IMG/VR virus record: IMGVR_UViG_3300050821_002165
Coordinates: 1-30,752 of that record
Strand: one strand, 5' to 3'
DNA: 30,752 nucleotides
DNA from: a virus
The notes beneath the pieces were generated by a model. It saw only the letters and a program-made list of their open reading frames with translations, made no database searches and was not told the DNA's origin. Of the stretch, positions 2,270-10,621 are shown in pieces. Position 1 is the first letter of the stretch. Every line of letters starts with the position of its first letter. Both the position numbers and the translations under genes were made by a program.

Positions 2270-2344
2270 TGGTGCCGACTGATGGGCTTGAACCACCGAC
2301 CTGATGCTTACAAGGCAACTGCTCTGCCACTGAGCTAAGAAGGC
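2270..2344 (-). tRNA. tRNA-Thr (anticodon TGT), somewhat degenerate
   Basis: Cloverleaf of 72 nt plus encoded CCA (2272-2270). D stem GCTC/GAGC; loop CTTGTAA gives anticodon TGT (Thr, ACA); T arm GGTGG TTCAAGC CCATC closes with one G-U. The acceptor stem GCCTTCT against AGTCGGC has two mismatches (positions 4-69 and 5-68), and the anticodon stem has one T-T mismatch. Ordinary bacterial tRNA-Thr would have GCCGACT here, so two adjacent changes have damaged the stem. It may be decaying or still usable. Confidence 0.8.
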
Positions 2345-8739: not shown

Positions 8740-8867
8740 TTCAGCTTCTCTAGCTTCTCGTTGAAATAATCCCACTTGGCCTTTTCCCAATTCCAAACAA
8801 CCCAACCGTCACGATACGGTTCTTGCACAATCCTATGTGTCTTTCCCTTGCGGTATGGGTCGGTCAC
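8736..8867 (-). CDS. Tiny protein, 43 aa
   Basis: GTG 8867 overlaps the stop of the methyltransferase C-half (GTGA), and its own stop overlaps the next ATG. Sequence begins MTDPYRKGKTHRIVQEPYRD and ends in a charged helix (NWEKAKWDYFNEKLEKLK). Function unknown. Confidence 0.6.
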   Translation of the reverse strand: MTDPYRKGKTHRIVQEPYRDGWVVWNWEKAKWDYFNEKLEKLK

Positions 8868-9688
8868 GCTGCCATCGCAATCGATTCTTCAAGATAAATC
8901 TGGCCATTGTCGTTGGCTGGCCCCATCGCGTTAAACCTAGCAGCAATGTCCGCGATGTATTCGGCTTCGCGTTCCATCAAGTAACAATTGAAGCCTTCAA
9001 GGTACGCGGCTTCGCCAGTCGTGCCGCTGCCTGCAAACGGGTCTAGGATCGTTCCACCGGGAGGAGTAATGAGCCGCGCCAGATATCGCATCAGAGCAAT
9101 CGGCTTTACAGTCGGATGCTTAGAACCAGCCCTATCGGTCTTGTTGGCCTTGGCTTGGTAGAAGAACCTAGCTGCAGAGCCTTCGTCACCCAGCGAGTCT
9201 TGACGCGGTTGGCGAGCGTAGTTCTTGCCGCTCATAGAAGTGTTTTCGCTTTCGTTCATTTTGTGATGCGTCAATAATTTTCCGCTTTTCGTATACGGAA
9301 ACGCCGCTACAACTTCTTCGCTGCCATCGGTGATGACGTTGGCGGGAAAGCGGCCTTTGCTTCCGTCATACTCAAAGGTGCCTGCAAGAAGGCCTGTGGT
9401 GTGGACTCCATCTGGCGCACGCGTGTAGCTACCGGACTTCAATTCATCGCCAGCAGCTACCCTACACCCATCAATATTGATAGCGCCTGTTCCCCACTTC
9501 AGCACGTTAGCTGCTACGGTCTTTTCACTGAGCGGCTTACGGGCCAATACAATCGGCTCGTTGGCGGGCTTTAGCGCGGTCCCTAGTTTATCAAATTCTT
9601 TAATGGCATCTGGAATATTGAATGATCCGTCTTCGTTTTGCGTCACGCAGCAATTATCGCCGTTGAATTTGAGATTAAACGTTTTCAT
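8864..9688 (-). CDS. DNA methyltransferase, C-terminal (SAM-binding) half of a split beta-class enzyme
   Basis: 274 residues. From residue 36 (GTALKPANEPIVLARKPLS) it matches the second half of phage N6-adenine/N4-cytosine methyltransferases: GTGAINIDGCRV, GRFPANVI, then HPTVKPIALM and the SAM-binding motif I, LDPFAGSGTTG, at 215-225. The catalytic (D/S)PPY-type motif is absent and lies instead in the ORF at 10121-10621. The first 35 residues have no obvious counterpart in intact enzymes. The gene has its own ribosome site (AGAGAAGAG) inside the end of the intervening HNH-like gene. It presumably works only with the N-half. Confidence 0.85.
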   Translation of the reverse strand: MKTFNLKFNGDNCCVTQNEDGSFNIPDAIKEFDKLGTALKPANEPIVLARKPLSEKTVAANVLKWGTGAINIDGCRVAAGDELKSGSYTRAPDGVHTTGLLAGTFEYDGSKGRFPANVITDGSEEVVAAFPYTKSGKLLTHHKMNESENTSMSGKNYARQPRQDSLGDEGSAARFFYQAKANKTDRAGSKHPTVKPIALMRYLARLITPPGGTILDPFAGSGTTGEAAYLEGFNCYLMEREAEYIADIAARFNAMGPANDNGQIYLEESIAMAA

Positions 9689-10130
9689 ATCTCTTCTCTA
9701 TCTTTGACGCGTCTCGCGCGATCAATTTCAGTTCGATTGCTGTCGCGTCGGAACGAATGCGATTTGCTCTGTTCGATATAATGCGGACATTACCCGGTAC
9801 ATATCCGAGCGCGGGAACTAAGCGGTCAAGCGATGGACTACTATCGAGCGGACCTGCAACAGAGTTGGCAATAATTCGAATTCCTAGTATCGGACATATT
9901 TTCGGTATCTCTGGAATGTCTGAAATTGTTAATGTGCATCTAACGCCGCTCTCTTTCGCTCGTTTCTTGCAGCCATCCAATATTTTGTATCGTGGAGTTC
10001 CGGCCAACCCGTGCGTAATATTTTGACACCCTCGCGAACAATAATGGTTTTTAGCTCTTCCGAAATGAACGCTACCCCCTCGCCACTCAAATTTCTTGCT
10101 GCAATGTTTGTTAGCGCAGATTATATCCAT
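9675..10130 (-). CDS. HNH-like homing endonuclease inserted in the methyltransferase
   Basis: 151 residues. A Cys-rich start (CANKHCSKKFEW, then YCSRGC) precedes the core: ICPILGIRI, then PSLDRLVPALGYVPGNVRII and SNRANRIRSDAT. This DR...GY..GNV.IIS..AN pattern is typical of phage-borne HNH-type free-standing endonucleases. It overlaps the N-half by 10 bp and the C-half by 14 bp. A self-splicing intron is therefore unlikely, because there is no room for intron ends. It has no intein block motifs. It probably moved into the methyltransferase gene as a mobile element. Confidence 0.75.
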   Translation of the reverse strand: MDIICANKHCSKKFEWRGGSVHFGRAKNHYCSRGCQNITHGLAGTPRYKILDGCKKRAKESGVRCTLTISDIPEIPKICPILGIRIIANSVAGPLDSSPSLDRLVPALGYVPGNVRIISNRANRIRSDATAIELKLIARDASKIEKRYENV

Positions 10131-10621
10131 ACAACTTCGGCTTCGAATCCCTGTTCTTTTAGTTGTCGCTCAAGATCGTTCAGCAGTGCCTTTGAAACGG
10201 AATGGCTTTTCGGAAAGCCGCTACCGTACAGCCATTGAATCATGTCGCGGATTTCAAATCCTGCATCTTCAACGGCGCAAGCCATACGGTGATACGTTCG
10301 CGTCCCGCCGAACGATAGAAGGTGTCCACCGGGCTTAAGGACACGCAAGCACTCGGCCCAAAAACCCGGATCATTGACGACTTCGCCAGTGTCCCAAGTC
10401 TTACCCATGAACCCCTTAGAGGCTCTAGCGAAGGCTTCGTTGCCCTTTGCCGGTGCAGCATTCGCGCCGCCAAACCGTTTAACAATCGACACGAGCGCAT
10501 ACGGCCCGTCAGTCAAGATCGCATCAACTGAATCATCTGGTGCGCTCGCCAAGATAGTGCGGTTGTCGCCACCGAAAAGGATCACGCGACCGTCTAGGAA
10601 TTCGTTTGTGGTGTATGTCAT
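10121..10621 (-). CDS. DNA methyltransferase, N-terminal (catalytic) half of a split beta-class enzyme
   Basis: 166 residues from ATG 10621 (a TTG at 10624 is one codon upstream). The catalytic motif IV reads AILTDGPYAL at residues 35-43, a DGPY variant. It is followed by KGFMGKTWDTG, FWAECLRVLKPGGHLLSFGG and TRTYHRMACAVEDAGFEIRD, all features of phage N6A/N4C methyltransferases. The frame stops at EAEVVWI, where intact relatives continue to GTALKP. The missing SAM-binding half is encoded at 8864-9688. The start overlaps the upstream stop (TGATG). Confidence 0.85.
   Translation of the reverse strand: MTYTTNEFLDGRVILFGGDNRTILASAPDDSVDAILTDGPYALVSIVKRFGGANAAPAKGNEAFARASKGFMGKTWDTGEVVNDPGFWAECLRVLKPGGHLLSFGGTRTYHRMACAVEDAGFEIRDMIQWLYGSGFPKSHSVSKALLNDLERQLKEQGFEAEVVWI

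Follow-up and report, generated by a model that had tools for sequence, protein, structure and literature searches.

The window, a 30,752-nucleotide stretch of viral DNA, carries a beta-class DNA methyltransferase gene that is divided into two coding regions by an HNH-type gene. We regard it as fairly probable that this is a phage orphan-type methylase whose variable linker was replaced by an HNH-type (homing-like) cassette, and whose two chains form a working enzyme. The record looks like a fragment of a temperate phage, as it also encodes a primase, a Sak4-like protein, a Cas4-type exonuclease, a helicase, an integrase, and a ParB-like protein. Rfam additionally identified a tRNA gene at 2273–2344 (minus strand), similar to phage tRNAs annotated as tRNA-Thr.

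Anatomy of the divided methylase gene

All three coding regions are on the minus strand. The N-half (10621–10121; 166 aa plus stop, ATG start) extends from TDGPY, with DGPY at the position of motif IV (10499–10510), to GFPKS, after which a 27-aa tail (10124–10204) ends in EVVWI and the stop. The end of the N-half overlaps the start of the HNH-like endonuclease gene (10130–9675; 151 aa) by 10 bp (ATGGATATAA, 10121–10130). The end of the nuclease gene in turn overlaps the start of the C-half (9688–8864; 274 aa) by 14 bp (9675–9688), and the purine-rich AGAGAAGAGAT lies directly before the C-half ATG. The C-half begins with a 35-aa leader (MKTFNLKFNGDNCCVTQNEDGSFNIPDAIKEFDKL, 9584–9688), and the methylase resumes at the conserved strand GTALKPANEPIVLARKPL (9530–9583), which we take to be motif VIII. 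Besides GTALKP, the C-half contains KHPTVKP, of which HPTVKP (9101–9118) is presumably the motif X region, and DPFAGSGTTG (9014–9043), the SAM-binding motif I.

The Pfam domain N6_N4_Mtase matched the N-half (E 9e-8) over positions 1–90 of its 221 and the C-half (E 8.6e-18) over positions 104–218, so that together the halves cover one such domain, with the catalytic motif ahead of the SAM motif as in beta-class amino methyltransferases. Most other relatives have DPPY in place of DGPY; the three closest (L002, L003, and L004) also have DGPY, and this variant is therefore not a mark of decay. Because the three ORFs have homologues in order, and a second contig (L058) is laid out alike, the arrangement is not due to chance. 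The layout described in the initial annotation, with its coordinates, its overlaps of 10 and 14 bp, and an HNH-type gene between methylase halves, is real.

The two halves are in the same frame, their start codons 933 nt apart, while the HNH gene is in another. A shared frame would suit a single chain, with the HNH gene crossed by RNA splicing, translational bypass, or frameshifting, but we consider such a product very improbable. Inside the HNH gene the methylase frame contains 7 stops, against a mean of 8.1 expected from 5000 synonymous shuffles; it is thus closed and unconstrained there, as in a true split, and a bypass would have to cover about 430 nt. A search with Rfam cmscan at the gathering threshold, covering the window and the loci L162, L163, L083, L058, and L050, returned one tRNA and no intron, and the overlapping ORFs leave no arms for an intron. 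A group I or II intron was ruled out in the window on these two grounds, in agreement with the initial annotation, which had noted that there was no space for one. An intein was also ruled out, since the HNH gene lies in another frame than the methylase, whose own frame is closed there, in contrast to the loci L084 and L163 (see below).

Intact relatives and constraint on the two halves

The N-half had been said to stop where its relatives continue, and relatives without the HNH gene were indeed found. Among the 252 loci with a methylase match, counting all loci fetched and taking repeat views of one contig as separate loci, 233 had the methylase in one ORF, six had it in two ORFs, and 13 had one half only or were rearranged. 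Single-ORF loci include the closest contigs, L002, L003, and L004, with 82–88% identity over N-half residues 1–146 and 67–73% over the C-half. The methylase is therefore intact in relatives and interrupted by a nuclease gene in the window. The six two-ORF loci represent four contigs: L056 is a frameshift, L117 has overlapping ORFs, L186 has an HNH gene nested in its second ORF, and L058 alone carries an HNH gene between its two halves. Matches in the phage collection numbered 692 records for the C-half and 538 for the N-half. A scan of genome contigs gave 13 methylase loci, 11 of them in one ORF, one in two (L117), and one with a C-half match only (L121), and a search of 385 genomes matched two at E 1e-20, with ORFs of 607 and 511 aa.

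The alignment of the window with L003 holds through GFPKS and resumes at GTALKP, which places the cut between these motifs. This interval is filled in L003 by a linker of about 65 residues, and in the window by the 27-aa tail, the HNH gene, and the 35-aa leader. An AlphaFold model of L003 (46-row alignment) had a mean pLDDT of 70.9, with values below 50 at residues 168–191, inside the linker, so that a break there should be tolerated. The model matches the fold of CcrM and M.RsrI (Foldseek E 6.5e-14 for 6pbd_A). Together with the domain match of the halves and the motif order, this fold bears out the beta-class assignment made at the outset. The strand EPIVLARKP of L003 (residues 214–222), presumably motif VIII, falls after the split point, and the C-half should therefore add to the catalytic sheet, besides providing target recognition and SAM binding. 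The initial annotation had divided the enzyme into catalytic and SAM-binding halves; the split itself was confirmed, but the cut lies in the variable linker, after GFPKS and before GTALKPANEPIVLARKP, and the C-half also holds a conserved strand and the target-recognition region.

A search for an intact form of the window linker, using a query of 45 aa with the start of the C-half, gave one weak match, to an ordinary intact methylase of Bacillus phage BSP18 (E 0.2). In view of the end of the BSP18 linker, DGSYKITTPATDLAKQWDGWGTALKPANEP, the latter part of the window leader may be the end of the old linker. An apparent match in MooMoo, from residue 5, is of the same weak kind.

Both halves are conserved. 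Between the window and L003, pN was 0.067 and pS 0.719 for the N-half. For the C-half, dN/dS of the window against L002, L003, and L004 was 0.146, 0.136, and 0.139, respectively, and 0.111–0.173 between intact pairs, with dS near saturation in several pairs and incomputable in four of the six N-half pairs. Replacements unique to one sequence where the other three agree numbered 4 (N-half) and 3 (C-half) in the window, 10 and 11 in L002, 3 and 9 in L003, and 3 and 6 in L004. The amino acid was identical in all four at 108 of 139 codons of the N-half and 135 of 202 of the C-half. Judged by these comparisons, the window halves are constrained like intact genes, with no sign of relaxation, although the measure takes in the entire window branch, and some of that branch may be older than the split.

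This pattern bears on the function of the halves. The insertion could have inactivated the methylase, leaving halves that are translated without assembling or are heading for loss, in a gene that merely carries a selfish HNH cassette. Such an outcome would agree with the argument that the methylase is non-essential, some relatives being without it (PMC11855218, in excerpt), with the frame-broken copies in L056 and L117, and with the extra frame break in the N-half of L058. We nevertheless consider it unlikely, as both halves are constrained without an excess of window-only replacements, and as the joints are tidy (the two short overlaps, a new ATG, and a leader shared with L058), unlike those of a decaying gene. 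We give very little weight to the use of one half only, for instance a DNA-binding C-half acting alone or with a host methylase; PHROGs do contain a C-half-like family of 244 positions (phrog_3008), but it is the N-half that is better conserved, by the codon counts above. From the constraint on both halves, we infer that the two chains probably assemble into a working enzyme, like the NrdA chains of phage Aeh1.

The nuclease gene and a second split contig

The window HNH protein has an N-terminal CxxxxC/CxxxC finger, followed by a C-P-I-L ... SPSLDR..P.LGYVPGNVRIIS..AN region. It had no match in Pfam or NCBIfam and matched PHROG endonuclease families (phrog_3322, E 1.7e-25), as well as 36 phage records, all under 60% identity. 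In a 14-row alignment, D102, R103, G109, Y110, V111, P112, G113, N114, V115, R116, I117, and N123 were invariant; the conserved core is without the canonical HNH histidines. Its structure model had a mean pLDDT of 79.7 (62.6–67.4 for the other four models) and had the restriction enzyme PacI as a weak top match (Foldseek prob 0.97, E 5e-3; VIA Z 6.7, rmsd 4.5, 91 residues), followed by other HNH nucleases; some unrelated rows had comparable Z. In L005, the closest relative (62% identity; pN 0.303, pS 0.741) immediately precedes an intact methylase. The same contig has another, different methylase ORF right behind the intact one (L005:3393–4307).

Both the first rank of PacI and the position of the L005 gene are what a restriction-modification-like pair of nuclease and methylase might show, the split being then incidental. 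This pairing is improbable, however, since several different HNH types occupy the methylase gene, and since nested copies move from phage to phage and degenerate, with the methylase retained. Moreover, of the 16 loci where the window HNH gene has a relative, only one (L086, which is the L005 contig) had a match to this methylase at E 1e-4 in the fetched flanks; the other 15 had none.

The second split contig, L058 (4684 bp, with 3 Ns), has the gene order of the window: N-half, HNH gene, C-half. Its N-half ends in GDIVWR and overlaps the HNH gene by 10 bp (ATGGAGGTAA), the same length as in the window; the HNH gene has a Pfam HNH domain, and the C-half starts with MKTYYVNVDGIDVVVTQNSDGTFNIPNIFRGLGTALKPA and overlaps the HNH gene by about 32 bp. 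When the joining peptides of the two contigs were compared, none of 5000 shuffles scored as well for the leaders, and two of 5000 for the tails. The nucleases align over the N-terminal finger only (one of 500 shuffles did as well). The two cassettes thus have homologous edges and different nuclease cores. The initial annotation had proposed that the C-half gained a new 35-residue start. The leader is present, but it is not peculiar to the window, and its homology to that of L058 means that it belongs to an inherited or transferred cassette.

In L058, a 5-nt insertion ahead of GFPKS also breaks the N-half frame. Because L186, from another metagenome, has the same insertion in the same DNA, the break is not a lone sequencing error; with its 3 Ns and broken N-half frame, L058 is still not a clean witness of function. 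At this site (L058:2678–2689 and L186:1536–1547) both contigs read TACGGCTCTGGTTAGGTTTCCC, where relatives have TACGG..GTGGATTTCC; the 5 extra nt bring an in-frame TAG after GGT, GGT recurs 5 nt on, and the downstream frame is conserved. Could the site be a second split point, or a short translational hop? Further split cases were sought in two ways. The DNA pattern for TQNxDGxFNIP hit two places in viral contigs, one in the L058 contig and one in an unrelated protein. The N-terminal part of the L058 HNH protein gave four loci, L058 among them; in the other three, no methylase was recognized among the forward-frame ORFs of the part inspected.

In the account that we favor, a homing-type HNH cassette would have replaced the variable linker between GFPKS and GTALKP. 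With the methylase frame closed by the cassette, the first chain would end in a short, helical-looking tail, its stop codon overlapping the start of the nuclease gene; the stop of that gene would in turn overlap a new start codon, from which the 35-residue leader leads back into the methylase. The three proteins would probably be made from one transcript by coupled translation, and chain N (TDGPY to GFPKS) would probably associate with chain C (the GTALKP strand, target recognition, HPTVKP, and motif I). No strong Shine-Dalgarno sequence precedes the nuclease start, which fits coupled translation. A hairpin at this start, as in Aeh1 mobE, was sought, and no fold was better than shuffles (z 0.84). 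That HNH genes are mobile at this methylase is suggested by the L005 gene beside an intact methylase, by HNH genes nested in the methylase at 24 loci, by near-identical nested copies in 18 mycobacteriophage records, and by an empty site in the phage Kanye (next section); the distribution is patchy, and the window nuclease may itself be mobile. Counted against the account are the single other split contig, the missing canonical histidines, the weak fold match of the nuclease, and a nuclease start that neither a strong Shine-Dalgarno sequence nor a hairpin precedes.

HNH genes within related methylases and known systems

At 24 loci, in relatives with a long linker, an HNH gene is nested out of frame in an uninterrupted methylase ORF, at two main sites and in fixed relative frames (L004, L009, L036, L038, L041, L053, L068, L069, L082, L104, L108, L155, L168, L170–L174, L177, L181, L186, L207, L244, and L247). 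The methylase frame has no stops across the nested gene in any of the 24, partly by construction, as these loci were found by requiring an open methylase frame. In 15 of them the HNH gene is in frame +1 (14 in the linker, and that of L068 inside an intein-like insertion), where 3.0–9.4 stops were expected and P was at most 0.0214 in every case. In the remaining nine it is in frame +2, mostly close to a repeated EPI..A.KPL stretch, with 0.4–4.1 stops expected and P < 0.05 in three. For L170, the tested stretch extends too far upstream. An automatic count gave 21 nested loci, including repeat views, from 16 distinct contigs; it is lower than the 24 of the frame test for two reasons: its pattern does not catch the Molly type, L038, or L041, and L177 and L186 were placed in other classes. 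As a control for the open-frame requirement, an HNH gene between two ORFs occurred among the 252 loci only in the L058 contig. The initial annotation had considered the split alone; an out-of-frame nested HNH gene with the methylase ORF left open is the commoner outcome of HNH invasion, and the split of the window is rare.

The nested genes appear to come and go. All eight loci found for the HNH type of L053 are nested in the methylase. The Molly-type HNH gene is 97.6–100% identical in 18 mycobacteriophage records and persists as a remnant in Abrogate (two records) and Oogway (one record), where the methylase is still open after most of the HNH gene was lost. In these two phages (L106 and L107), the methylase linkers are what in-frame deletions have left of the HNH gene, read in the other frame. 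Kanye is the HNH-free (empty-site) counterpart of Tarkin, with a 5′ flank 99% identical. That the annotation of the nested HNH gene in Molly might be a false call was ruled out by the frame and shuffle tests.

It is possible, and we propose it only tentatively, that the linker is a standing docking site for HNH cassettes with two stable coding states, one hidden out of frame and the other splitting the gene with joining peptides of its own. In the hidden state, selection would keep the methylase frame open; in the other, the joining peptides would be the N-half tail and the C-half leader, common to the window and L058 despite their differing nuclease domains. If so, the window would encode a beta-class methylase that a selfish gene had turned into a natural enzyme of two chains. 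The split shows a second way, besides the hidden form, for a selfish nuclease gene to live in a phage methylase. The two states together raise the questions of what lets one insertion preserve the host frame while another disrupts it, and of whether the cassette supplies parts with which the disrupted enzyme can function. For two-part methylation reporters, a split site of natural origin would also be of use.

Other interruptions were seen in relatives. In the mycobacteriophages Daenerys, KilKor, and Bhagsy (L162:2172–2563, L163:2079–3175, and L083:4516–4970, respectively), the methylase is broken just before VKPLTLMRW, and a conserved small ORF ending in VAHPT overlaps its last part; at least five more phages look similar. 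Intein-like insertions occur at different points of the methylase N-half in EBPR siphovirus 2 gp50 (L084:1342–3702) and KilKor gp53 (L163). L050:1–1866 has an in-frame LAGLIDADG-like stretch (NWLAGFADGEGCF...) in the methylase, in which no splicing domains were seen. In L068 (2871–3728), the out-of-frame HNH gene appears to be inside an intein-like methylase insertion (WVYGCLDEETEV ... FVTGNSGFPKS), apparently an intein with a nuclease hidden in another frame.

CcrM, M.RsrI, and M1.HpyAVI are single chains, with a short loop at the place where the window gene is split. Their fold (PDB 6pbd, 1nw8, and 5hfj) was matched by the intact relative L003. In the open-licence literature, neither a beta-class methylase split by an HNH gene nor a natural two-chain example in this class was found. 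Already known, by contrast, are phage genes split by a homing endonuclease (nrdA, gene 60), C5 methylases of two chains, and HNH genes hidden in the present methylase family. The cytosine-5 methylases M.AquI and M.EcoHK31I are made as two chains; unlike the window enzyme, an amino methylase of the beta class, they belong to the C5 class, have another fold order, and in the available part of their description have no nuclease gene between the parts (PMC3404938).

In the same methylase family are the out-of-frame HNH genes hidden in mycobacteriophage methylases, including the ShiLan domain, which were published in 2025 (PMC11855218, in excerpt) and are likewise treated in PMC12613952 (in excerpt); the nested loci described above extend this record. 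An intein and a LAGLIDADG insertion are reported for the same methylase family in the accessible text of PMC9957025. The ShiLan-type insertions resemble the window in the methylase family, in the HNH gene inside it, and in being patchy, transferable, and without signs of an intron or intein (excerpts of PMC11855218 and PMC9957025). They differ in that their methylase frame is open through the insertion (PMC11855218, in excerpt), while that of the window is closed by its 7 stops, about as many as expected, and the gene is split. The word "Split" is absent from the available part of PMC11855218, and a shuffle test of the open frame, a spread over environmental contigs, and a split form were not found in the accessible portions of the literature on hidden HNH genes.

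The likeness to Aeh1 drawn in the initial annotation holds: a nuclease gene interrupts an enzyme gene that is a single gene in relatives. In Aeh1, nrdA is split by the HNH gene mobE into two chains that are active together, and in both this case and that of T4 gene 60 and mobA, an HNH gene interrupts a phage enzyme gene to give two coding regions (PMC2988022, in excerpt). In T4, free-standing nuclease ORFs commonly overlap the ORF that precedes them, and coupled translation has been discussed for T4 mobE and others (same excerpt). The window differs from both systems in that the host gene is a DNA methylase, the HNH family is apparently a different one, and the insertion lies in a variable linker instead of a critical region.
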